This document shows positions 50,945 to 63,761 of a stretch of 64,000 nucleotides of DNA, piece after piece (the first letter of the stretch is position 1; every line of letters begins with the position of its first letter). Location of the stretch: positions 62,001 through 126,000 of the forward strand of contig NZ_JXZC01000005.1 in NCBI RefSeq assembly GCF_000935355.1, written 5' to 3'. The DNA comes from Rossellomorea aquimaris (GTDB lineage Bacteria; Bacillota; Bacilli; Bacillales; Bacillaceae_B). Below the pieces are notes generated by a model. The model was given only the letters and a program-made list of their open reading frames with translations. It searched no databases and was not told the DNA's origin. A program made the translations under genes and the position numbers.

Positions 50945-51186
50945 ACTAAGCCAACCTCCTAAATGCACTATTGCTCCTTGGAGCATTTACTTCCTAAATA
51001 TAACACTATTCATATATAATAGCGAAGGGCAATTACTCACCCCTGTAAGCACTTACATTCTAACAAATAAATAAGGAAATATCTCTATTTTTCTTTAAAA
51101 AATATAATGATTATTTCTTCGCTTTTTTCCAAAAATTCTTTAAAATAGAAACCATGCATCTTAGTATACCCAAAGGAGACTTTTTC

Positions 51187-52515
51187 ATGAAACAACCCAT
51201 GATCGAAAGACTCGGACTTGAAAAGGTCCCTGCTGAATTAAAATCCACCACATGGATCGAATACTTCATCATACAGCTCGCCTTCTCCGTAAACGCAGGA
51301 AACTTCCTCATCCCGGCTCTGGCCGTCCTTGAAGGCGGACTATCCTTTCAGGCAGCGTTCCTTGCCACCGTACTCGGAGCAAGCGTCGCCTTCCTATTCG
51401 TATCATTCCTGTCACTACCGGGCTCCCGCTACGGCCTGCCCGCTCAATACGTCCTGCGGTCCATCATCGGAACCCGGCTGTCGATGCTCATCGCATCCCC
51501 CATCCGGTCACTGACGTCCCTCTACTGGTTCAGCGTCCAAACTATCGGAGGAACCTTCGTCATCATCTCCATGGTGGAAAAAGTAACACCCTACACCATA
51601 CCATTCATCCCGGTCGCCATCGGACTCGCCATCATCATGACCCTTCTAGCCCTCATCGGCTTCGAAGCCGTCAAAAAAGCGACCAAACTATTCATCCCGA
51701 TCCTCGTGATCGGCCAGGGAATTATCCTTTACCTGTTCCTAACAAAAGGTGCCGATTCCCTTACAACACTAAGCCAAGGCCAGGAACCATTCTCCATCGG
51801 TACGTTCCTATTCTACTCAAGCCTCGTCTTCGTCCAATACATCTCAGGCGTCAGCGCGTCATCCGACATCACCCGCTACAGCAAAAGCGACCGCCACGGA
51901 TTCTGGGGACTATACGGAGGAAACGTCGTCGGATTCATGATGACCGCCCTCCTTGGAGGATTGAGTGCCAGCTTGTTCAAAGATCTGAATCCATTCGTGG
52001 CAGCTGGGCAGCTTACTGATTCAAGCCTGTTTCTATTGGTGATAACGGCTTGTGCGATGGTTTCGATGATTTCGATTAATCTTAGTAATGCGTATACAGG
52101 GGGATATAGTTTGCTTAATGCACTGCCTTCCCTTTCACGGATTCAAAGTGCACTATTGTTCAGTGTTGCTGGAATCATTTTAAGTTCGTTTCCGCAGCTG
52201 GTTTATAATGCGCAGGAGTATATTTCTTATCTTGGGATCCTGATCATTCCGATATCGGCTATTGTGGTGGCTGATTATTTGGTTATTCGGAAAGGAAGAA
52301 TTTCTGAGAGTGCGCTTGTTCGGCTGGCGAGTGGGCAGTCGAATTTTAATCGGGAGGCGTTGTACGTTTTAGTGATTGGTATGGTGATTTATTTGGGGAT
52401 TCCGGATGGGTGGTCGCCGGGGTTTAGTTGTTTTATAATGACCTCTATTATATATGTTCTTAGTAAAATAAGGGGTAGGATGGAAGCACAGCATCCTATT
52501 CAAAAACTTGGTTAA
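51187..52515 (+). CDS. NCS1-family purine/cytosine-type permease
   Basis: 442 residues from ATG at 51187 (GGAG at 8 nt). Twelve membrane helices; the NCS1 start WIEYFIIQLAFSVNAGNFLI, IASPIRSLTSLYWFSVQTIG and QYISGVSASSDITRYSKSDR match the family. Nucleobase or related uptake is probable. Codon usage is odd: up to about 51,960 almost every wobble base is C or G/A of a GC-rich style, then T-ending codons dominate abruptly, as if the gene were a recombinant. Confidence 0.88.
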   Translation: MKQPMIERLGLEKVPAELKSTTWIEYFIIQLAFSVNAGNFLIPALAVLEGGLSFQAAFLATVLGASVAFLFVSFLSLPGSRYGLPAQYVLRSIIGTRLSMLIASPIRSLTSLYWFSVQTIGGTFVIISMVEKVTPYTIPFIPVAIGLAIIMTLLALIGFEAVKKATKLFIPILVIGQGIILYLFLTKGADSLTTLSQGQEPFSIGTFLFYSSLVFVQYISGVSASSDITRYSKSDRHGFWGLYGGNVVGFMMTALLGGLSASLFKDLNPFVAAGQLTDSSLFLLVITACAMVSMISINLSNAYTGGYSLLNALPSLSRIQSALLFSVAGIILSSFPQLVYNAQEYISYLGILIIPISAIVVADYLVIRKGRISESALVRLASGQSNFNREALYVLVIGMVIYLGIPDGWSPGFSCFIMTSIIYVLSKIRGRMEAQHPIQKLG

Positions 52516-52519
52516 GGAA

Positions 52520-52557
52520 AAAGAGTGAACCTGTTTGTTAGGTTCACTCTTTCTTGT
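52520..52557 (+). terminator. terminator of the permease gene
   Basis: AAGAGTGAACCT/AGGTTCACTCTT stem then TCTTGTT. Confidence 0.85.
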
Positions 52558-52594
52558 TCAATAATATCCAAGAAGTAGACATTGTAAATACTTC

Positions 52595-52999
52595 TTATGC
52601 AGAATCTCTATCATCATAATGAAAGTTTGCTTTCAGATATTTGATAATTAATCTTACTTTTACATCCATTTCATCTCTATATTTTTCACTTATATTGATC
52701 TTCACAGGTAGTTCACGAATACTCACTTTAGAATTAATATTCTTTAGTTTTTCATAAACAATTTCAAATGAGTTCTGCAGGTCTTGTTCTGCAAAATAAT
52801 AGCATAATTCTATATAGAGTATTATTTTGCTAACTGGTTTAGTTGCCATAGGTTCAACCTCATATTTCGTTTTACCTGCAGCACCATCCCTAGTATAGCC
52901 ACTGTCGATACATTCTTGATAAATATCAGCTACCAAGTATTTAAATTTTCGATAGTCTTCATCATTTTGATCTCGATCACCATAAAAATTAATTATCAT
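52595..52999 (-). CDS. predicted partner (immunity-like) of the deaminase
   Basis: 134 residues from ATG at 52999, preceded by AAAGGTGG; it overlaps the end of the deaminase gene by 11 nt. Alpha/beta, soluble and lysine-rich: DYRKFKYLVADIYQECIDSG, FAEQDLQNSFEIVYEKL, KINISEKYRDEMDVKVRLII. No family recognised. Overlap and size fit a toxin/immunity or effector/regulator pair; this is inferred from context only. Confidence 0.6.
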   Translation of the reverse strand: MIINFYGDRDQNDEDYRKFKYLVADIYQECIDSGYTRDGAAGKTKYEVEPMATKPVSKIILYIELCYYFAEQDLQNSFEIVYEKLKNINSKVSIRELPVKINISEKYRDEMDVKVRLIIKYLKANFHYDDRDSA

Positions 53000-53567
53000 C
53001 GCAGCCACCACCTTTATCGCAGGGATTATTATTATATCTCTTTTCATAATAGACTGTTATATCGACGTTATATTTTTTCTCAAACTCGATAATAACACAT
53101 CTACAACTTGGACAGGGATACCTCTTAGTCCAAAGAATAATTGAATGGTTAAATTCCTCTGTGTTTTCAAAAGATATTTGTTCTAATATTTTTGATTCAG
53201 TGTCATCCCATCGATTCCAGTTTTCAGAACTTTCACTACAAATATCATTTAAGACTTTTGTTTTAAAGGCATTTGTACGACCAATAAGCTCGGGACGATA
53301 CCCAATTATATATTTATCTTTAAATATATCTAGATACTTGAATTTGTCTTTTCGGTTAAATCCACTATGAGCAATATACTTTTTAGCTTCGTTATTAGTA
53401 ATATAATAAGCGCATGCAAAATTCCCACCATTTATTGCGCGTGCGTAATTAAATCTATCATCCTCATTGATATTTTGGTCTTCGGATAGCTTTTGAAGCC
53501 TTAAATTATATTCATTAATAATTTCATTAATGACTAGATCATTTTGATTGTATTCTTGAACATTCAT
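52989..53567 (-). CDS. predicted cytidine-deaminase-fold protein (toxin-deaminase type)
   Basis: 192 residues from ATG at 53567 (GGGAG at 8 nt). GNFACAYYITNNEAKKYIAH supplies the first strands, WDDTESKILEQI a D-x-E (122-124) on the zinc-site helix, and KRYPCPSCRCVIIEFEKKYN a C-x-x-C (152, 155) on the next, then a strand VDITVYY. The [H/C/D]xE...CxxC order is that of bacterial toxin deaminases. No N-terminal secretion or trafficking domain, so it would act inside its own cell or is a freed toxin tip. Followed at once by a small overlapping gene. Confidence 0.7.
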   Translation of the reverse strand: MNVQEYNQNDLVINEIINEYNLRLQKLSEDQNINEDDRFNYARAINGGNFACAYYITNNEAKKYIAHSGFNRKDKFKYLDIFKDKYIIGYRPELIGRTNAFKTKVLNDICSESSENWNRWDDTESKILEQISFENTEEFNHSIILWTKRYPCPSCRCVIIEFEKKYNVDITVYYEKRYNNNPCDKGGGCDDN

Positions 53568-53702
53568 TTTAATATCTCCCAATAAATGACTTTATTCACT
53601 CTCTAAGTAACTTATTAATGTTAACTTTAATTTACTGTTTTACAGGATATTGATATGTATAAATATTTTATAGTGCATTTTCACTATTAAAACATCCGAA
53701 AA

Positions 53703-53751
53703 TTACACCTCTCTCACCATATAGCCCCTCCTCATTAAGTATCACTTAATT
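53703..53751 (-). promoter_or_regulatory. palindrome and mini-ORF upstream of the deaminase
   Basis: TTAAGT-ATC-ACTTAA (53735-53749). Downstream on the minus strand, GAGGAGGGG leads to ATG (53720) for a five-codon frame, MVREV, ending TAA (53703). May be an operator and a leader peptide or chance. Confidence 0.3.
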
Positions 53752-53863
53752 TTATTTTTTTCCATAAACTCTCTAAAAATTAATAATCTGTATACCACTC
53801 TATTATCCTAATATTTACGAGCTATTTAGACGTAAAACGGGATTCTTAGGTTAATTCTTTTGG

Positions 53864-56044
53864 CTAAGCCAATTCTACGAGTAAATCAAAGTCAATATGG
53901 GCCTCAATATAAATAGGAGGAGTATCTAAGGGAAATGCTTTAACTTTAAAGGCAATACCATTTTTATCAAATTCAGCTTCTTCAATTGTAAATTTAGCTT
54001 CTTCATGACCTACTATCTTTTTTATTGAAGGCTCAATGTGTGATCCAAGTAAATCTTCAGCTGCATAGTTAGCGTTTTTACCTATTAAATTTTCAGGCAT
54101 TATTTTACTCCAATGCCAAGGTATTAACTTACGGCCTTTTCTCCACCTTTCAACAAGGTGAACATTATCGAGTCCTTCGACTACACTTTGTCCAGCATGC
54201 TCACTAACAATAACTTGAAGAGCACCATTTGTTCTTTCTATACCTGAAGATAAGGCTTTGAAGACTTTATTTACAGCTTGCAATTCTTCTTTTTCCGAAT
54301 CTTTTTCTGTATTATCTGGAAAATGAGTCTGGCTTGGTTGATCAATGACTAATAGACTAGGAACATAAGGGATATTTTGACTTATAAAAAGCTCATGTAA
54401 TGCTAACATAGTCGCTATATGATATCCAAGCCAGTTGGCACCACTTCCAATTTCTCTAAGCCACACAGTATCACCTTTTTCATTGATAACACGAATAGTT
54501 AATTTATTGGTATCAAGTTGGATTAGGTCGTCACCTGTCTCTAAATCTAAGATTGAACCATAATGACCTGCAAACCTTGTAAACTTATATAGCGCTGCTT
54601 CTTTCCTTTGCACAAAAGTTTCAAAGTCTACAGTGGAAACTAACTCTTCCTCTTCTGCTTTTAATTGAGAAATATCATTAGCTAATTCTCCTTCATCAGT
54701 GAGGGAATCGTGAAGATTAATAAACTCGGCAGTCCTACCAACGAACATTGCAATTTGCTCTCTTGTTGCTTTCATCTCTTCAGTTTCCACTTGTAAATAA
54801 TCACGTTCAGATCTAACTTGTTTAATTTCTAACTCTTTGTTGGTGATTTGTTTTCGAATGTCTACTTCTTCTGCGTCTAGCATCGGTGGAACAAGTGTAA
54901 TAGACTTCCACTGCGCTTCTACTTTTTGAGTGGATTCAATCAGATTTTTAAGTTCATTGGTTGGATTTTCACTACTACTTCCACATAAAGGACAAGAATG
55001 GTTTTGACTTATTCTCTCAGTTAACCAAGACGTAGATGAAAGCCGATCTCTTTTCCTGGCAATATTTACTTCTGAATTCCCTCTTGCGAGTGAAAGCTCC
55101 TTTAACTGAGTTAGTCTAACTCTTAATGTTGTAAGCTCTGAGTGAAGATGAATTTCTCTTTCACGAAGCCATGAAAGTCTACCAGCATTCAAATTTTCAT
55201 TATCTTCATTCATATAAAACGAGCTCTTTTTCCAAGAGATTATTATATCTTTGAGTCTTTCAAACAAGATTTTTGTGTCTGTTTCTTCAACACGTATTGA
55301 GGGCAATAAACCATATTGTATCCCCACCAAATATCTAGCCCGTACTTCTCCCGAAAAATTTTCAATACTTATTTTTAAAGATTCCAATTGCCTTTGTTTC
55401 CGATCAATTAAACGTCTAACCTCTCGTAATCTATGCTGTTTGATGAGGGTTTCAGAATTAACCACTCCTAATACTAAGGGGAATATTTCTCTTAATTTTC
55501 TTGCATGCTCTTCAATATCCCCTTCGAAAAACATAGTTTCATTGTTAGCAACTATTCTCTGAGGTTGAAAAATAAAAGCTGTCATATCTGAAATAGAAGC
55601 TCTGCCCTTGAACCCACTACCTGTGTTATCAAAGTCCGAATCAGATTGAGGTAACCTTGCCAATCTTTCTAATATGCTCTTAGCAAAATCGCGGTTTGCA
55701 TTTTTTTGGGGACTTTCTGGAATACCAACTTTTATCCCTTCATTTATCATATAGTCACCAGTTGATTTTTGTTTGCCTGGGTCTCTACGTGCAAATAGCT
55801 TTTCTCCCTCATCCGTGCTGATTAATATCCCATACCAAGAAGAATTATTTCTAATAGGTCCGATCTTGGGAATAGAACAACCACCTGACCCTAAGCAATA
55901 ATCAATAATTTCGATGATCGCCGATTTACCACTACGACTCGAACCTGTTATATAATTTATTGCACCTTCCTTGAAGTTAAGGAGACGAACATTTTTATTA
56001 CTATCCTTTGGCCAAATAATAATCTTCAATATTGTAAAATTCAT
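53864..56044 (-). CDS. ABC-3C system ATPase, DUF3732 type
   Basis: 726 residues, SMC/Rad50-like layout. Walker A GSSRSGKS at 34-41; coiled coils on both sides of a C-P-L-C zinc-hook-like motif near 353; a signature-like [20 protein letters not shown] near 545; and a Walker [15 protein letters not shown] near 566, where Gln replaces the usual catalytic Glu of D-E-P. DUF3732 proteins are the ATPase of ABC three-component systems, predicted nucleic-acid-sensing conflict modules. Start overlaps the preceding stop (ATGA). Confidence 0.85.
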
Positions 56045-56553
56045 TTATTAGGCTCCACTCCTAATATAGTCAAATATTCAAAAATGGACATATTTCCTGC
56101 CCAAATTCCTAGTTTATTTGCTGCCTTTAATACAGCTTTAGTCTCCGCTTGAACATTTTTTGGAAGCTTGAAGTTACTTCTAGAGGTGAAGTTCCCATTC
56201 TCAAGTGTGACTAGATTACAAGCTATAGCCAGATTTAGAGAACGAAGAGTTCTTTTCTCCATTGACATTATACGATTTTCAAGATTAAATATAGCTTCAT
56301 TTTGTGCTAATGAAATAGAGGGTTCACGGTCAAGTATAGAGCGAAGCCCAGACGACTCCCGCCTCTTTATTATTACTTTTCGGCTGGTGCCATGAAATAC
56401 TAAAGGAAGTATAGTAAATATGTGCCACAATGTTAAATGCTCATGCTTCTCTTGTGGATAGGATATGAAACCCTGAGCAAATGCCCAAATTGCATTAGCT
56501 CCAATTGCAGGATTTTGCATTATTTCGTATTCTTGTAAAAGCGACCCGCTCAT
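56041..56553 (-). CDS. ABC-3C middle component
   Basis: 170 residues, mostly helical: [40 protein letters not shown], then [20 protein letters not shown] and [20 protein letters not shown]. The N-P-A-x-G-A-x-x-I-W-x-F start and the ILPLVFH-x(2)-S/T segment are typical of the middle components of three-gene ABC systems. Thought to connect the ATPase and the effector protein. Tightly packed: 2 nt from the upstream gene, 4-nt overlap with the ATPase. Confidence 0.78.
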
Positions 56554-56555
56554 AG

Positions 56556-57722
56556 TTAAGACTTTCCTTTCGATAGCGACTTAAAGCTAGGGTGCCAACC
56601 TATAACTGGTTCTTTTTCCATACTAAAATGTGCCAATGCATGGAAATTTCCACTTGAAATTGACTTTGGCAAAATTTCATTATGAATATAAGTGTTATTT
56701 TCTATTGTTAGATCCAAACACTCTTGCCCTTTTATTTCTAAAGAAGAAAATGGTTGCCTATTTGCTCTTCTTCTTGCAGTTTCCCAACATCTTTTCAAAT
56801 CGTTTTCATAGAGTAAAAGAGTTGTCTCAGAAACTGTATCATTATCTGACCATTTCATACGAGTGTCTTGTGCATGCAAATAATCTAAAATTGACTCTCT
56901 AATTAATTCTTCATCTGCATTAATCCAATCTAACTGTTTTACAAACCCATATGAGTCATACTTATTAATATCAACATGAATATCAAATGGCTCAATTAAT
57001 GCGGTCAACCGAGCAACATTCACTTTCCTGAATAGCCCTTTTAACTCCTTATCAAAGTCCTTTCTGGTAATTCTCGGACGTTGCTTATTTTCAACCGAAT
57101 ACCTAATGTTCCTAGTTACCCAACCTTTCATTTGATCAAATATACCAACTTTCATGTTTGTCTCAAAAACCCTAAGAGCTTGTATATTTTCCAGGTCACC
57201 ACCAAATTCAGAACTCATTTTATCAAATATTGAAATTTTTATGATCAGATTTTTCAGTTGCTCTTCACTTATACTCAAAAGAGTATTACCATATCCAATT
57301 AAATCCTCCCTTAAAGTAGGAATAATTTCCTTTAGTTCATTACAAATTATTTCTGCTGACTCAATCTCTTTTACATTATTTATTCTTTTGGCAAGACACT
57401 TAGATGAAATTGATCCATTTGTAACAAGGTGGAACTCTGTATTTAATAGAATTGTTGGGTCTCTCTTAATTGTCTCCGCCCAAATATGTAATGTCTTCCA
57501 TAATGCAACACTTCTATCAGAAAGAGGCGAATTGGACTTTACGGTCGATTTATCCTGTTCTCTAATTTCTTTTCCGTTATGATAATGTACACTCACGTCA
57601 TCAATATCCTCAATCCCTATTTCAACAACGTCAACTGAAGACTGAAAGAGATTATAAGTTGCACGATCAAACTGGTATACATATCCTAATGCTGGGCCAG
57701 AAGCAGAATGATCTGTACTCAT
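56556..57722 (-). CDS. ABC-3C effector/C-terminal-domain protein, nuclease-like N-terminus
   Basis: 388 residues from ATG at 57722 (GGAGGGG at 6-7 nt). The start GPALGYVYQFDRATYNLFQS, followed by an acidic strand (EIGIEDIDDV) and EIREQDKSTV, recalls the Cap4/DUF4297-type dsDNA nuclease fold (G-x-x-Y-Q, D-D, Q-x-K). A helical remainder contains LSDRSVALWKTLHIWAETI and ends with an ABC-3C C-terminal-domain-like part. First gene of the three-gene operon. Nuclease activity is inferred from this short pattern only. Confidence 0.72.
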   Translation of the reverse strand: MSTDHSASGPALGYVYQFDRATYNLFQSSVDVVEIGIEDIDDVSVHYHNGKEIREQDKSTVKSNSPLSDRSVALWKTLHIWAETIKRDPTILLNTEFHLVTNGSISSKCLAKRINNVKEIESAEIICNELKEIIPTLREDLIGYGNTLLSISEEQLKNLIIKISIFDKMSSEFGGDLENIQALRVFETNMKVGIFDQMKGWVTRNIRYSVENKQRPRITRKDFDKELKGLFRKVNVARLTALIEPFDIHVDINKYDSYGFVKQLDWINADEELIRESILDYLHAQDTRMKWSDNDTVSETTLLLYENDLKRCWETARRRANRQPFSSLEIKGQECLDLTIENNTYIHNEILPKSISSGNFHALAHFSMEKEPVIGWHPSFKSLSKGKS

Positions 57723-57948
57723 GGTACTCCCCTCCAAATAATTAGAAATCATTGTTATCTATTCGACAATTTTCTTACATTTCCTTCCTATTAATAAAAA
57801 TTAATAAACTCATATTTTTTCTAAAAAAACTAATAATATTTGATTTTCTTTAGAATTAGTAAGCTTAACAAGTGATTACTCCCTAACCAAATAACAAATT
57901 TTGTTTAATATGGTAAAATAGATAACAAACTATTATGGAGGTATCATA
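57723..57948. promoter_or_regulatory. divergent promoter region of the ABC-3C operon and helicase gene
   Basis: 226 very AT-rich bases between the two starts. For the helicase an extended -10, TGGTAAAAT (57911-57919), lies 30 nt before the GTG; no clear -35. Shared region suggests joint control of both transcripts. Confidence 0.4.
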
Positions 57949-60492
57949 GTGACTTTTGACTTTAGTAAATTCCTTGATCAGTCTGAAAAATCTAAAGAAG
58001 TAAATCCAATTAAAATTTACGATGGTCTGCCAAAAGGCAAAGTAAATGATTTATGGCGTGGTCAATACCTAGCTCTTGAAGAACTCTCTAATGAAAGAGA
58101 ACACAATAACATTGCAGTGAATTTAAATACTGGAGGTGGAAAAACAGTAATAGGTTTACTCTATGGTCAGTCATTAGTAAACGAGTTAGAGGACAGAGTT
58201 TTTTATTTGTGCGGATCTAACCAGCTTATTAAACAAACGAGTGATGCTGCTGAGAGCCTTGGGTTAAAAGTAGCAACATATTTTAATAGAGAAATGAAAT
58301 ATGAACGTGAGTTTAACCTAGGTGATGTTCAATGCTTGACAAACTATCAAACCTTATTTAACGGGAAAAACCGTAGATTCCGCAATGATATTAAAGGAAT
58401 TATATTTGACGATTCCCATGTAGCTTCTCATATTGTGAGGGAAAACTTCACACTTAAAATTTCAGAGGATGAATTTCCTAAAACATACGCATCTTTAGTT
58501 GGATTAGTTCGCCCTTATTTTAATAGTACATACCGTTTACAAGAATTTGATCAGGTTGTAACATATAAAAATGATCCATCAGTTCTCTTTATTCCTTTGT
58601 TTGTTTGGAGCAAGATATTTGGAAAAGTTGTCGAGACATTAACAAATGAGAAAGTTACCGAAAAAATGTCTACAATGTTTTCTTGGGAACATTTAAGAAA
58701 CAATTTAGATTTATGTTCAGTCTTTCTTACTTCTAACTCAATAGAAATAACACCTTTTTTACCACCTGTCCAAGAGCTTAGTTTTATGTCTGAACAAACT
58801 AGAAAGGTATTTCTTTCAGCAACAGTACAAGATAAACCTGAATTCATCCGTACATTTGGATTCCTCCCTGATATTCATATTGATCCAAAAACGAGTGCTG
58901 GTGAATCTGAAAGATTAATTGTGACCCCTTACATGAATCCAAATATTAAAGAAGAAATGTTTGAATTTATTATTAATTTAAGTAGAAAAGAAAAGGTTTT
59001 AATTATCCCAAAGAGTGAATATCAGGCACGAAAGTGGCGTGATTACGAAATATCATTTTCATCGGATGACTTCTCAGATAAAGTAGACGAATTTAAAAAT
59101 GCCTCCCATGGAATATTGGTTGCCCCTGCACGATTTGAAGGTATGGATTTTCCAGGTGATACTTGTAGATTACTGATTATAGATGGTCTTCCTTCAGGTA
59201 CAGGATTAATGGAAAAGTTTTTATGGAGTAATTTAGGTGAAAATAAGTTCTTACAAGGAACTGTAGCATCCCGGGTAGTTCAGTCTATGGGTCGAATATC
59301 TCGTGGAACCGACGATTATGGAGCTGTATTTTTACTTGGGGATGATATGGCAGATTGGATTACCCGTAAAACTAATCGTAATGTGCTATCACCTTTTACA
59401 AAAGCCCAATTAGAATTGGGTGAAGAATTAACTAAGGAATTAAAATCAATTGATGACCTTGCTGGGTTGGTCTCTACTGTAATAAACTCCAACCGTAATA
59501 AAGGATGGACAAATTTACACAAGACTCGTGTTCAACAATTCTCTGTAACCTCCCAAGTTGAAAGTAAAGTTGAAGTCGAAGAAACACACCAAACCAAAGT
59601 GGCTAGAGCTGAACGTCTCTTTCTCAAAAATTTATGGAACAGAAATTATGCACGTGCAGCTCGCTCATTAGAAGAGACTCTTGAAGAACTCTATGTGAAT
59701 GATAAAGCTCAGGCTGCTTGGCATGCACACTGGATAGGATATGCTTATCAATTAAGTGAAAATTATTCAGCTGCGGAGAGATATTTCAATAGATCTGGAG
59801 GTACTTATAGAGCCCTTGGGAGGTTAAACCTAGAACCTGCACCTACTCCTTCTTTACCAGTCATAGCTACTGGTGATTCCCAACCAGAGAGAATTGCAAA
59901 AGTGTTAAGTGAGAGAGGTGACTTTAACTATGGATCATTTAGTGAAATGGATGGGCGACTAGCACCTATTTTTTCATTAAAAAGCTCATCTAACCAGTAT
60001 GAAACAGCTCTTTATTGGCTAGGACGTTATCTAGGATTTGAATCAAGCCGCCCAGACCAGTTGAGTAACATAGGTCGTGGACCTGATGTATTTTGGGCTT
60101 CACCTGAATTTGACATTTTACTAGAAAGCAAAGAGGACAAAGTTGATACCTCCCAATATTCAAAAAAAGATGTTGGGCAGTCTCACAACCATAATATTTG
60201 GTACGAAGAAGAGTTTCCAAAATCTCATCGTTTTAGAAAATTAATGATAGTTGGTCCAATTGTTGCAGCTAATCCCGCTGCTAGCCCAGGTAACGAAATG
60301 CATATTTGGACACCAGAAGAAATAATAGAGTTGGCAAAACGAACAAAAGCAATATTGTATGATTCATATACAACATCAGAGAGTGCAACATTCGTACTAA
60401 CTCTCAGAAGAAAATTAGAAGAATCAAATCTTAGTTTCCAAGGTATATTTGAAAGTCTTCCTGATCGGCCTATTAAGAGAAAGGAAAGTTAA
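57949..60492 (+). CDS. SF2 helicase (DinG/XPD-like) with C-terminal PD-(D/E)xK-like nuclease motif
   Basis: 847 residues from GTG (GGAGG at 7 nt). Helicase motifs: TGGGKT (61-66), FDDSH (153-157, DEAH variant), KVFLSATVQDK, and a Rad3-like end APARFEGMDFPGD with QSMGRISRGTDDYG. From about 540 a TPR-like helical part (ARAARSLEETLEELYVND, AAWHAHWIGYAYQLSENYSA). Near 707-735, GRGPDVFWASPEFDILLESK shows G-P-D and E-x-K in PD-(D/E)xK spacing, with a following Q-S-H. Probably unwinds and cleaves foreign DNA. Divergent from the ABC-3C operon. Confidence 0.8.
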   Translation: MTFDFSKFLDQSEKSKEVNPIKIYDGLPKGKVNDLWRGQYLALEELSNEREHNNIAVNLNTGGGKTVIGLLYGQSLVNELEDRVFYLCGSNQLIKQTSDAAESLGLKVATYFNREMKYEREFNLGDVQCLTNYQTLFNGKNRRFRNDIKGIIFDDSHVASHIVRENFTLKISEDEFPKTYASLVGLVRPYFNSTYRLQEFDQVVTYKNDPSVLFIPLFVWSKIFGKVVETLTNEKVTEKMSTMFSWEHLRNNLDLCSVFLTSNSIEITPFLPPVQELSFMSEQTRKVFLSATVQDKPEFIRTFGFLPDIHIDPKTSAGESERLIVTPYMNPNIKEEMFEFIINLSRKEKVLIIPKSEYQARKWRDYEISFSSDDFSDKVDEFKNASHGILVAPARFEGMDFPGDTCRLLIIDGLPSGTGLMEKFLWSNLGENKFLQGTVASRVVQSMGRISRGTDDYGAVFLLGDDMADWITRKTNRNVLSPFTKAQLELGEELTKELKSIDDLAGLVSTVINSNRNKGWTNLHKTRVQQFSVTSQVESKVEVEETHQTKVARAERLFLKNLWNRNYARAARSLEETLEELYVNDKAQAAWHAHWIGYAYQLSENYSAAERYFNRSGGTYRALGRLNLEPAPTPSLPVIATGDSQPERIAKVLSERGDFNYGSFSEMDGRLAPIFSLKSSSNQYETALYWLGRYLGFESSRPDQLSNIGRGPDVFWASPEFDILLESKEDKVDTSQYSKKDVGQSHNHNIWYEEEFPKSHRFRKLMIVGPIVAANPAASPGNEMHIWTPEEIIELAKRTKAILYDSYTTSESATFVLTLRRKLEESNLSFQGIFESLPDRPIKRKES

Positions 60493-60628
60493 AATAGAAC
60501 TCTTAATAGGTTTAATCGATTTTATTATCTCCCATTAGTAAATGTTTCTACACTCTAAGAATTTTTACGTGCTCGATAAAAATCTAACTTGTACAAAGAT
60601 CTGCACCAGGAGGGTACTTTGAAAAATC

Positions 60629-60680
60629 GGGGTCTGACCCCCAGTACATTAATGCTTCATCGTACAGAGGGTCAGACCCC
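60629..60680. repeat. GGGGTCTGACCCC hairpin repeat
   Basis: GGGGTCTGACCC (60629-60640) pairs perfectly with GGGTCAGACCCC (60669-60680) around a 28-nt loop. A single palindromic half-unit TGGGGTCAGACCCCA occurs at 61022-61036. Confidence 0.8.
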
Positions 60681-61021
60681 AATATTATACATAAATACTA
60701 TAAATAGATTAGTTCCATGAATATCCCAACGCGTTAACTTTTTCACCTTAGTCATACGGGTTAGTAAGTAACTGGCGTTGGAGCAGTGATGTGTCATTAG
60801 AGAAGATTGACGAGGATAAGCTTTTACAGCTTCAGCCTTTTAATACAATAATGCAAAAAAAGTTGTATACAGCGAACCACTGTAAAACACAGAATCTCTC
60901 AAAATTTCAAGATTGACCGAATATAGCACCTTTTACCAAACATATACCTGAGTCCCATCCTCATTCATGGTATTCAACAGAATCCACATATAGAGGTGAA
61001 GATCCTCCAGGTGAAATAAAA

Positions 61022-61036
61022 TGGGGTCAGACCCCA
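61022..61036. repeat. GGGGTCAGACCCC palindrome
   Basis: TGGGGTC-A-GACCCCA, perfect 7-bp arms; related to the repeat at 60629. Confidence 0.75.
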
Positions 61037-61046
61037 AAGATAAACA

Positions 61047-61071
61047 AATAAGGAGCTTCATGCTCCTTATT
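61047..61071 (-). terminator. terminator overlapping the end of the zinc-ribbon gene
   Basis: Minus-strand AATAAGGAGC/GCTCCTTATT around 5 nt, then TGTTTATC. Confidence 0.7.
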
Positions 61072-61243
61072 CTTTTCTAAGTTTTTCTCCAAAACATTCA
61101 TCACATATAAGCGAACCATGAGGGCTTATAAATAATTTTGTGCATTCAACGCACTCTGTATATCCTTTAATTTCCTTAAGATAATTTATCTTCCTGGCCT
61201 GCGCTGCTTCTCTTTCTTCCATATCACGTTTAGCTCTCCCCAT
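61067..61243 (-). CDS. 58-residue zinc-ribbon protein
   Basis: Found by translating the minus strand: ATG at 61243 with GGGGGG 6 nt before it, TAA at 61067. A basic helical N-terminus (MGRAKRDMEEREAAQARKIN) precedes a C-x-x-C (CVEC) and a second C-x-x-C (CDEC) about 14 residues later, a four-Cys zinc ribbon. Possibly a nucleic-acid-binding accessory protein of the neighbouring island. No family recognised. Confidence 0.7.
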   Translation of the reverse strand: MGRAKRDMEEREAAQARKINYLKEIKGYTECVECTKLFISPHGSLICDECFGEKLRKE

Positions 61244-61430
61244 CTTGGACCCCCCTTAGAGTTTAGACTTCTTACACTTCAGTATAGGTATAAGAGTCTC
61301 ATTTTATACTATATAAAGTGAATAATAGTTTTTAATATTCTTTATTTATAAAGGGGAATATTAATCTATTACAAAAATCAATATTTTATTAAACAAAATA
61401 AACAAGACCAAAGGAGATCTTTTTATCAAT

Positions 61431-61769
61431 TTAGTCTAGAACTGGTACATCGGCTTGTATATGGATGAACTTGAATCCCTTAGACTCATTCTGAGTAGGT
61501 GTTGTTTCTGATCCTAATCCATTATTTAAAGCATATAGAAGAGGTGGACACCTTAAGGTACACTTGAATGTTTTACCATTTTCCTTTACATAATTTCCAA
61601 CTGATTTAATAGCACTACCCCAATGTCCTTGTAATTCTCTACCATGGGAAAATTGTAATAAACCTACTAGTTCTCTCTCCAAATAATTATCACGCATGTT
61701 GGCTTTCAATCCCTGTGTAGGTGTTACAGTTGATGCAAATTCTGGTTTTTTTGTATTATCATCTAACAT
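61431..61769 (-). CDS. protein of unknown function
   Basis: 112 residues: DDNTKKPEFASTVTPTQGLK, NYLERELVGLLQFSHGRELQ, GHWGSAIKSVGNYVKENGKT, and a beta-rich end GFKFIHIQADVPVLD. AAAAGG upstream of ATG. No family recognised; soluble, no signal peptide. Lies between the island and the rbs operon. Confidence 0.6.
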   Translation of the reverse strand: MLDDNTKKPEFASTVTPTQGLKANMRDNYLERELVGLLQFSHGRELQGHWGSAIKSVGNYVKENGKTFKCTLRCPPLLYALNNGLGSETTPTQNESKGFKFIHIQADVPVLD

Positions 61770-61813
61770 TAAATATCTACCTTTTCTCCACTACTTTTAG
61801 CAATAAAGGAAAA

Positions 61814-61847
61814 AAACCTCATTCGTACAAATGCACGAATGAGGTTT
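61814..61847 (-). terminator. terminator of the rbs operon
   Basis: AAACCTCATTCGT/ACGAATGAGGTTT stem, then TTTTCC on the minus strand. Confidence 0.85.
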
Positions 61848-61858
61848 ACCACTACAAT

Positions 61859-62797
61859 TTATTCTGAAGAATCTTCTATATTCTCCTCCGTCACCAACTT
61901 CAACGGCACCGGAATCTTCTTGTCTACCTTCTTCCCTGACAACACATCAGCCCCAGCCTGAACGGCCAACGAACCAATCTTCTCAGGTTGCTGAGCAACA
62001 GTCGCAGACAGGTTACCATTACGAATGCTAGTCATCGCATCTTCATTTCCATCAAATCCAACGACTAAAACGTCACGACCAGAACTCTGGATCGCCTGCA
62101 GTGCACCCAACGCCATTTCATCGTTATGAGCGAACACCGCTTTGATATCTGGATTCCCCTGAATCAGGTTTTCCATCGTATTTAATCCTTCGGTACGATC
62201 AAAGTTCGCCGTCTGTTTGGCTACTACATCGAGCTTTTCATCCGCGATGTTATGGAACCCGGCTCCCCGCTCACGGGTGGCGGATGCTCCAGGGACACCT
62301 TCCAGTTCTGCAACCTTTGCTCCTTCACCAAGCTGCTCAACGAGGTATTCTCCGGCCATTTCTCCTCCCTTTTCGTTATCGGAGCTGACGAGTGTGGCGA
62401 CGTCTCCTTTTTCCGCTGAACGGTCAAGGGTGACGACGGGAATGCCCAGGCTGTTGGCCGACTGGACGGCAGTAGAGATGGCCGCTGAGTCCGTCGGGTT
62501 GATGAGTAAGACGTTGACACCCTGCTGGATAAGGTCTTCTACGTCATTGATCTGTTTTGCAGCATCATTCTGGGCATCAACGACGACGACTTCCATGCCT
62601 TGTTTCTTCGCTTCGTCTTCTACCCCGTTTTTCATGGAGACGAAGAATGGGTTATTAAGTGTTGAAACGGATAGTCCGATTTTAATGTCTTCCGGGTTTG
62701 AGCTTTTATTTGGCTTGGCCCATTCCGGCGGCTGCAGGGAGCAGGCGCCGAGGAATAGGAGTGACAAACTGATTAGTAGTAACCATGCTTTTTTCAT
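61859..62797 (-). CDS. rbsB: D-ribose ABC transporter substrate-binding lipoprotein
   Basis: 312 residues from ATG at 62797 (GGAGG at 6 nt). Lipobox L-G-A-C near 19 after LLLISLSLLF. Periplasmic-binding fold: IKIGLSVSTLNNPFFVSMKN, VVDAQNDAAKQINDVEDLIQ, TLDRSAEKGDVATLVSSDNE and DVLVVGFDGNEDAMTSIRNG. The sugar-binding R and D/N residues are in their usual places. Delivers ribose to RbsAC. Confidence 0.93.
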   Translation of the reverse strand: MKKAWLLLISLSLLFLGACSLQPPEWAKPNKSSNPEDIKIGLSVSTLNNPFFVSMKNGVEDEAKKQGMEVVVVDAQNDAAKQINDVEDLIQQGVNVLLINPTDSAAISTAVQSANSLGIPVVTLDRSAEKGDVATLVSSDNEKGGEMAGEYLVEQLGEGAKVAELEGVPGASATRERGAGFHNIADEKLDVVAKQTANFDRTEGLNTMENLIQGNPDIKAVFAHNDEMALGALQAIQSSGRDVLVVGFDGNEDAMTSIRNGNLSATVAQQPEKIGSLAVQAGADVLSGKKVDKKIPVPLKLVTEENIEDSSE

Positions 62798-62807
62798 AGT
62801 ATCCCTC

Positions 62808-63761
62808 CTACGCTGCTTTCTTTCGGTCGATGAGAACCGCGATGATGATGACGACACCCTTTACGACCATTTGGAAGAAGGATGAGACGCCGAGCAGGTT
62901 CAGACCGTTGTTTAACGTTCCGATGATGAGTGCACCGATCAGTGTTCCGACGATCAGTCCGCGTCCGCCTGACAGGCTTGTCCCGCCAAGGACGACGGCG
63001 GCGATGGCATCTAGTTCATAGGATGTACCGGCAGTCGGCTGGGCTGAATTCAGGCGTGACGTCAGAATTGCTCCTGCGAGTGCTGCCAGTAAGCCGGTCA
63101 GGGAGTAGATCATCACTTTGATGCGTGGTACTTTGATTCCTGAGATAAGTGCTGCTTTTTCATTTCCACCGATGGCATACGTTTTTCGGCCGAACGGGGT
63201 TTTATGCAGGATCACCCAAAGGATCGCAAACGTCAGGATCATCGTGACGGCAGGTACCGGGATTCCAAGGAAGTATCCTCTTCCGAACAGTTGGAATGCA
63301 TAGCTGTCACCGAGTCCCGTGATTGGATTTCCGTCTGTGTATACAAGCGTTAAACCACGGAACATCGTCATTGTTGCAAGTGTTGCGATGAATGGTGCCA
63401 TTTTTCCTTTTGTGATCAATAATCCGTTGACCATTCCCATCACGGCTCCGAGGATACAGCCGATCAAGATCGCAAGGATCGGGTCGATTCCCGATACCAT
63501 CATCCCTGCCATGAGGGCACTGGATAAGGCGAGGATCGAGCCGACGGATAAGTCAATTCCCCCGGTCAAAATGACGAAGGTCATCCCGTAGGCAATCAGG
63601 GCGTTGATCGCAACCTGTCGTAATAGATTCAATAAGTTCAAGGGTTCTAGAAAACTAGGGTTGATGATGGATACGGTCGCAATCAGCACAAACAGTCCGA
63701 GGAGTGGACCGAGCTTTTGCATCAGATTGCCGACGTGATTCGTTTTGAGTGCGTTATTCAT
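62808..63761 (-). CDS. rbsC: ribose ABC transporter permease
   Basis: 317 residues, eight to ten membrane helices. [60 protein letters not shown] and [20 protein letters not shown] are hallmark RbsC/AraH-family segments, the third being the ATPase-contacting loop. Overlaps rbsA by 8 nt and is followed 10 nt later by rbsB. Confidence 0.94.

Follow-up and report, generated by a model that had tools for sequence, protein, structure and literature searches.

A three-gene operon and a divergently transcribed helicase-nuclease gene, located between positions 53,864 and 60,492 of a 64,000-nucleotide stretch of the Rossellomorea aquimaris genome (contig NZ_JXZC01000005.1, positions 62,001 to 126,000; hereafter the window), are identified here by homology as a Lamassu system and as Hna. 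We read them as two complete anti-phage modules, each of a kind known to work alone, that lie side by side in a defense hotspot, and we give this reading a probability of about 0.85. Dissimilar Hna and Lamassu lineages have been joined in this way on more than one occasion. The original prediction, made from the sequence itself, had proposed an anti-phage role for the four genes; this remains likely now that the operon can be assigned to Lamassu and the helicase to Hna by their homologs, and we infer that the window copy works.

Identity of the Lamassu operon and of Hna

The tight three-gene order of Lamassu is present in the window, with a 2-nt gap between lmuA and lmuC and a 4-nt overlap between lmuC and lmuB, as read from the open reading frame (ORF) list and the sequence. 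The whole ORF layout first described, including coordinates, spacings, the 226-bp divergent region, and the 847-residue length of the helicase, was reproduced (Table 1). For lmuA, the ORF list gives a start at 57752, but it is the ATG at 57722 that has, by eye, a ribosome-binding-like GGAGGGG before it. A PADLOC search, one of the checks proposed with the original prediction, named LmuA (E 7e-49), LmuC (E 8e-15), LmuB (E 1e-142), and, for the divergent gene, PDC-S28. The assignment of the operon to the ABC-3C modules also held, because Pfam (matches accepted up to E 0.05) recognizes MC3 in the middle gene (PF20131, E 6e-33) and DUF3732 in the ATPase gene (PF12532, E 4e-53). The first gene had been called nuclease-like, and here the support is divided: Pfam gives only CTD7 at the C-terminus (PF20283, E 1e-15), and its scan of LmuA did not match the Cap4 nuclease, but the protein aligns over nearly its full length with solved LmuA chains (PDB 9nxx, E 1.3e-24; 9hqu was also matched). 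Its N-terminal part carries the residues E38...D42...EQDK, the lysine being K58; the variant chain 9ny1 has alanine in place of this lysine, and EQDK is kept in the window LmuA. From the homology to the solved chains, the N-terminus of LmuA is a predicted nuclease.

LmuB is likewise related to solved chains (PDB 9hqu_A, E 5e-116; 9ny5 was also matched) and has a Walker A motif, GSSRSGKS, at residue 34, a CPLCG hook at 351, and a Walker B motif, LVIDQP, at 565, in which Q stands where E is expected. A zinc-hook motif in many LmuBs and a general Walker B substitution have been described (PMC10586767). By homology, the operon is a Lamassu system, LmuA-LmuC-LmuB, of the CTD7/MC3/DUF3732 kind: gene order, the three domains, the zinc-hook motif, the Walker B glutamine, and the relationship to solved chains (9nxx, 9ny5, 9hqu) all agree, and no difference was found in the window operon apart from its Hna neighbor. 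The G+C content of 53864-60492 is 35% versus 41% for the whole window.

The divergent gene had been described as DinG/XPD-like with a G-P-D...E-x-K pattern, and its link to an ABC-3C module as one that could not be placed in a named system. The description proved accurate, the pattern being G711-P712-D713...E726-S727-K728, but the helicase-nuclease can be placed: PDC-S28 matches the protein end to end (E 2e-303), and PDB 10uj, deposited as an Hna monomer (PMC13381803), matches it with E 1.5e-59 across residues 4-778 of 847, giving near end-to-end homology to the Hna of S. meliloti. Judged by these relationships, the 847-residue protein is Hna, which acts in abortive infection as a one-protein system and whose structure has been solved, and we infer from the PADLOC and PDB matches that PDC-S28 is the same family as Hna; PDC-S28 carries another name in DefenseFinder (PMC11811056). 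The SF2 motifs GGGKT (62-66), DDSH (154-157), SAT (290-292), and Q445/G448/R449/R452 are invariant among nine aligned homologs, as are the nuclease residues E685, P712, D713, E726, and K728 (9/9). K728 corresponds by motif to K729 of S. meliloti, at a place where the pairwise alignments are shifted by one residue; the K729A variant is nuclease-dead (PMC13381803). The PD-(D/E)xK fold expected for the C-terminus is supported through homology to this solved nuclease. The window protein resembles S. meliloti Hna (PDB 10UJ/9YKJ) in length (847 vs 845 residues), SF2 motifs, PD-(D/E)XK residues, and near end-to-end homology, and differs from it in being only 28% identical to the S. meliloti 1021 homolog (L087) and in adjoining Lamassu here. 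That it might instead be the DinG of a type IV CRISPR system or a DinG/YoaA helicase of ordinary DNA repair is highly improbable: a Helicase_C_2 domain is present and the typeIV_DinG model does match (E 2e-15), but this match covers the helicase part only, whereas the PDC-S28 and Hna matches are full-length and a C-terminal nuclease is present; moreover, the NCBIfam DinG and YoaA models score far under their cut-offs, and in six neighboring proteins scanned there was no Cas family except for helicase models on Hna itself.

Table 1. Features of the Lamassu-Hna locus, in window coordinates
Feature	Position	Strand	Description
lmuB	53864-56044	-	726 aa, SMC/Rad50-like ATPase, DUF3732
lmuC	56041-56553	-	170 aa, middle component MC3
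lmuA	56556-57722	-	388 aa effector, CTD7 at C-terminus
Divergent intergenic region	57723-57948		226 bp, 23% G+C
hna	57949-60492	+	847 aa, GTG start with GGAGG upstream; SF2 helicase-like domains and C-terminal PD-(D/E)XK nuclease
Variable interval (defense hotspot)	52516-61858		between permease gene and rbs genes

Recurrence of the Hna-Lamassu pairing

Hna was found in 11/397 genomes of the order sample, 12/398 of the class sample, and 7/398 of the phylum sample, i.e. in 25 distinct genomes including that of the window; these samples are small and overlapping. G207 (Hna contig 3.5 kb), G1153 (3.6 kb), and G1019 (an Hna fragment) were dropped, leaving 22 genomes, 21 besides the window; among the 22, the flanks are short in G255 (3.4 and 1.9 kb) and 3.6 kb on one side in two more, and the Hna of G153 is split over two frames. 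Lamassu lies directly beside Hna in 3 of the 21 other genomes (4 with a Lamassu-like pair) and is of the DUF3732 kind in two. In G851 (L062), lmuA, lmuC, lmuB, and hna stand in a row with 30 bp between lmuB and hna (Hna 65%); in G981 (L070), hna comes first, followed by lmuA, lmuC, and lmuB; and in G566 (L064), an LmuA with a Pfam Cap4 nuclease and an LmuB of another kind are followed by hna about 60 bp after lmuB. The Lamassu-like case is G669 (L067), in which a PDC-M22A/B pair (L067 5086-7721) comes after hna. PDC-M22B also matches LmuB models in L067, and PDC-M22 may therefore be a Lamassu relative.

The pairing extends to plasmids. Plasmid Hna matched 213 records, of which 13 loci were fetched; Lamassu is present in one, L076 from Ensifer (hna, 452 bp, lmuA, lmuC, lmuB), which was chosen knowingly because its accession stood in both the Hna and the DUF3732 lists, and absent in 12. 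From the Lamassu side, 18 plasmid DUF3732 loci were fetched of 63 records, and Hna lies within 6 kb in two, L076 and L077; in the latter (Peribacillus), Hna and Lamassu are convergent with a phospholipase-D-like gene between them. Annotated helicase genes also lie near or beside the plasmid DUF3732 Lamassu of L099 (8929-11382) and L102 (1896-3959), and these are not Hna by profile. Single-protein scans, whose reach is limited to close relatives, confirmed no viral contig for Hna or LmuB; phage records gave one Hna match, in a Salmonella record.

Lamassu is not found alongside most of the Hna genes examined, among them those of L024 (73%, the closest relative, with 10-kb flanks), L025 (66%), L012 and L013 (56%), and L026 (54%); L024, L025, and L026 are three further contig loci, and the Hna of L025 lacks its first 81 residues. 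Conversely, the closest Lamassu loci (G255 and G385, lmuB 67-68%) do not have Hna next door, and among the 18 DUF3732 genomes of the order sample (two with broken short matches), Hna is adjacent in the window only. PF12532 was used for this census because PDLC03859, rejected as a probe, matches in 13/14 control genomes. Three genomes were not counted as adjacent: G255, where the two systems are on two contigs starting with nearly the same transposase-like stretch (which we take to be IS110-like) and Lamassu is bordered by other genes for about 4 kb in one direction and, by eye, by restriction genes in the opposite one; G205, where Hna and Lamassu are on different large contigs; and G080, where an LmuB-type gene without DUF3732 lies far from Hna. 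It had been stated in advance that the link would fail if homologs of the helicase were rarely next to ABC-3C genes elsewhere. The answer is mixed: Lamassu is absent next to most Hna loci examined, the closest one included, but present at the 3 of 21, with the additional Lamassu-like pair, and these fall in several lineages. An early reading as chance juxtaposition, taken from the Bacillales sample (adjacent in 1/11, the window itself) and from close relatives without Lamassu, was changed by the class and phylum samples.

Both systems are present together in 3 genomes of the order sample vs 0.5 expected (P 0.01), and DUF3732 neighbors were seen in 2 of the 21 Hna genomes against about 0.004 expected under even placement; with an assumed 50-fold clustering, a rough model, P is about 0.016. 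The Hna tree (38 rows, 6 Lamassu-adjacent; L020, L025, L027, and L075 dropped, L010 outside the set) requires at least 6 changes, gains or losses, and the LmuB tree (34 rows, 5 Hna-adjacent; LmuB kinds without DUF3732, duplicates, and fragments dropped) at least 4. L070 and L077 pair closely as sisters on the LmuB tree and have Hnas from distant clades, a case of partner exchange. A survey of the Hna flanks started from 126 ORFs of at least 200 residues within 5 kb of Hna at 25 loci, 16 of which, chosen by eye, were omitted (all ORFs of L069 and L075 and three others) to leave 110 ORFs from 23 loci; among the PADLOC families of this set, the LmuB family PDLC03859 has the most members, 5, followed by mad2, mad3, and AriA with 3 each, and with our own profile 4 genes of the set are Lamassu or Lamassu-like, versus the 5 PDLC03859 matches. 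Hna may be last, first, divergent, or convergent. Because the layouts differ and the trees need these numbers of changes, we see a recurrent pairing and no fixed four-gene system; a conserved Lamassu-Hna neighborhood was not found among the loci compared, and the closest Hna and the closest Lamassu each lack the partner next door.

Two independent modules or a working partnership

The mechanisms considered here are taken by analogy from papers on homologs. LmuB, Rad50-like and with its Walker B glutamine, would be expected to sense ends or hairpins in phage or plasmid DNA under replication and then to activate the LmuA nuclease (PMC10586767, PMC12904381, for sensing and the Walker B substitution). 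Hna has been characterized in S. meliloti as a 3'-5' single-strand DNA exonuclease, with unwinding not measurable, that degrades 3' overhangs and halts at duplex, and the ATP-bound dimer is autoinhibited until phage SSB releases it (PMC13381803); the window protein would presumably be held and released in the same way. Lamassu and Hna would both be modules acting on DNA ends or single-stranded DNA, and their pairing, though not fixed, does not look plainly random. Since unrelated bacteria show the pairing in other layouts, the two may help each other. Two complete modules side by side remain our preferred reading, and two observations weigh against it by suggesting ties closer than those of independent modules: the shared 226-bp divergent region in the window, and the operon-like spacing of L062 (30 bp) and L064 (about 60 bp).

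These ties could mean that Hna is a working partner of Lamassu in a relay giving more than the two alone, a tentative proposal that we hold to be rather unlikely. Either SSB-released Hna would trim 3' single strands to duplex, leaving ends that LmuB recognizes, or LmuA cuts would be processed to single strands and then destroyed by Hna. The recurrence in unlike lineages, the exchange of partners between L070 and L077, the halting of Hna at duplex (PMC13381803), and the requirement of a Vibrio Lamassu for the helicase PriA (PMC10586767) are in agreement with such a scheme, as is the precedent of the helicase-nuclease DruE and ZorE, which act via shared DNA intermediates in a reported functional link between Druantia III and Zorya II (PMC13192584, preprint). 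That case resembles ours in joining a helicase-nuclease to a second nuclease system, the two recurring together and, there, synergizing; it differs in that the protein families are unrelated and in that the link has been demonstrated there and is a proposal here. That preprint does not mention Hna or Lamassu. Also in favor is a 12-nt exact inverted pair in the intergenic region (57752-57763 and 57917-57928), with one copy before each of lmuA and hna; 9 of 500 shuffles reach 12 nt, and the genome holds 3 exact copies, 2 of them in this region. A shared operator is possible on this ground, and suggestive only, but no such pair was found upstream in the relatives inspected. Other evidence runs counter to a relay: the majority of the loci examined, whether of Hna or of Lamassu, stand without the partner, the gene arrangement is not conserved, and the Hna of S. 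meliloti confers protection on its own (PMC13381803). A recurrent composite defense, in which Hna as exonuclease and Lamassu as Rad50-like sensor would make up a relay on the same phage DNA ends and the pair would have been assembled several times from interchangeable partners, is doubtful to the same degree.

An even chance attaches, in our estimate, to plain defense-island clustering, by which the locus would be one of many juxtapositions of mobile defense genes with no functional tie. The hotspot described below is occupied by differing systems from one sister genome to another, OLD, restriction, Gabija-like, AbiJ-like, and PDC-M34 genes (several by eye) are found close to other Hna loci, 12 of the 13 plasmid Hna loci are without Lamassu, the LmuB-type genes of G205 and G080 are far from Hna, and the Hna-adjacency label on the LmuB tree is no more clustered than in shuffles (79/500 as low). 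On the other hand, simple clustering fits less well with LmuB being the leading PADLOC family in the Hna flanks and with the excess of DUF3732 neighbors, for which the rough model with its assumed 50-fold clustering gives the P of about 0.016. Several defense systems have reportedly acquired the same extra genes, namely nuclease-protease pairs (PMC12799240), a likeness to the present case in that unlike systems repeatedly gained the same additions, although the genes are others; the word Lamassu appears in that article. Our literature search, with most subscription papers outside its reach, found no description of Lamassu-Hna cooperation; a single paper, concerned with AbpAB to judge by its title, uses both names, and the word Lamassu is absent from the Hna papers that were text-searched. 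If the pairing is functional, it would be a directly testable case in which a common DNA intermediate connects two defense systems, with Hna making or removing the ends that Lamassu would read, and it would explain why a helicase-nuclease capable of acting solo stands beside Lamassu in unlike bacteria.

Two further results concern the intergenic region: a consensus promoter scan gave 26 sites versus 26.5 in shuffles, i.e. no excess, and a repeat element was rejected as its source, as the 36 genus genomes hold no second full copy and just short weak matches.

The permease-rbs interval

The locus lies in an interval flanked by a permease gene (51154-52515) and by rbs genes from 61859, and this interval, taken as 51154-62857 in the window and as L046-L060 elsewhere, is a variable, defense-rich site in the genus. 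Permease and rbsC, taking the full-length permease match, are 4.2-25.5 kb apart on one contig in 12/35 sister genomes; in G011, G012, G013, and G023, the best matches are on one contig hundreds of kb or more apart, and in the remaining ones the two matches fall on separate contigs or only one of them is present. The 12 sister intervals contain no relative of the window LmuA, LmuC, or Hna by tblastn (E 1e-3) and a weak LmuB match in one, and Hna occurs in 1/36 genomes of the genus. A PADLOC scan of 20 chosen ORFs from 9 of these intervals gave at least one defense-family match in each of the 9 genomes, with 5/20 ORFs unmatched; the cargo includes DUF4297-HerA (2 genomes), an LmuB-type gene with an RT-Toprim retron, an LmuB-type gene with PDC-S71, LeoA/LeoBC, OLD, OLD/AriAB-like, Pycsar cyclase, and PsyrT. 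Even without synergy between Hna and Lamassu, the interval is a hotspot where new systems can be sought.

Beside lmuB in the window lies a gene for a BURPS668_1122-family deaminase (52595-53582, minus strand; PF14424, E 3e-17), overlapped by a small ORF without a Pfam match that is perhaps its immunity partner. Partial or broken extra rbsB copies lie within the sister intervals L047, L051, L054, L055, and L060, and from these the rbsB end looks as if it were used for insertion. A 284-residue ORF (320 residues in L057), not among the ORFs of the window interval, recurs in L046, L048, L049, L051, L053-L055, L057, L058, and L060. Finally, an inverted repeat of the GGGGTCAGACCCC type lies at 60623-60686, and similar stretches occur in several sister intervals.

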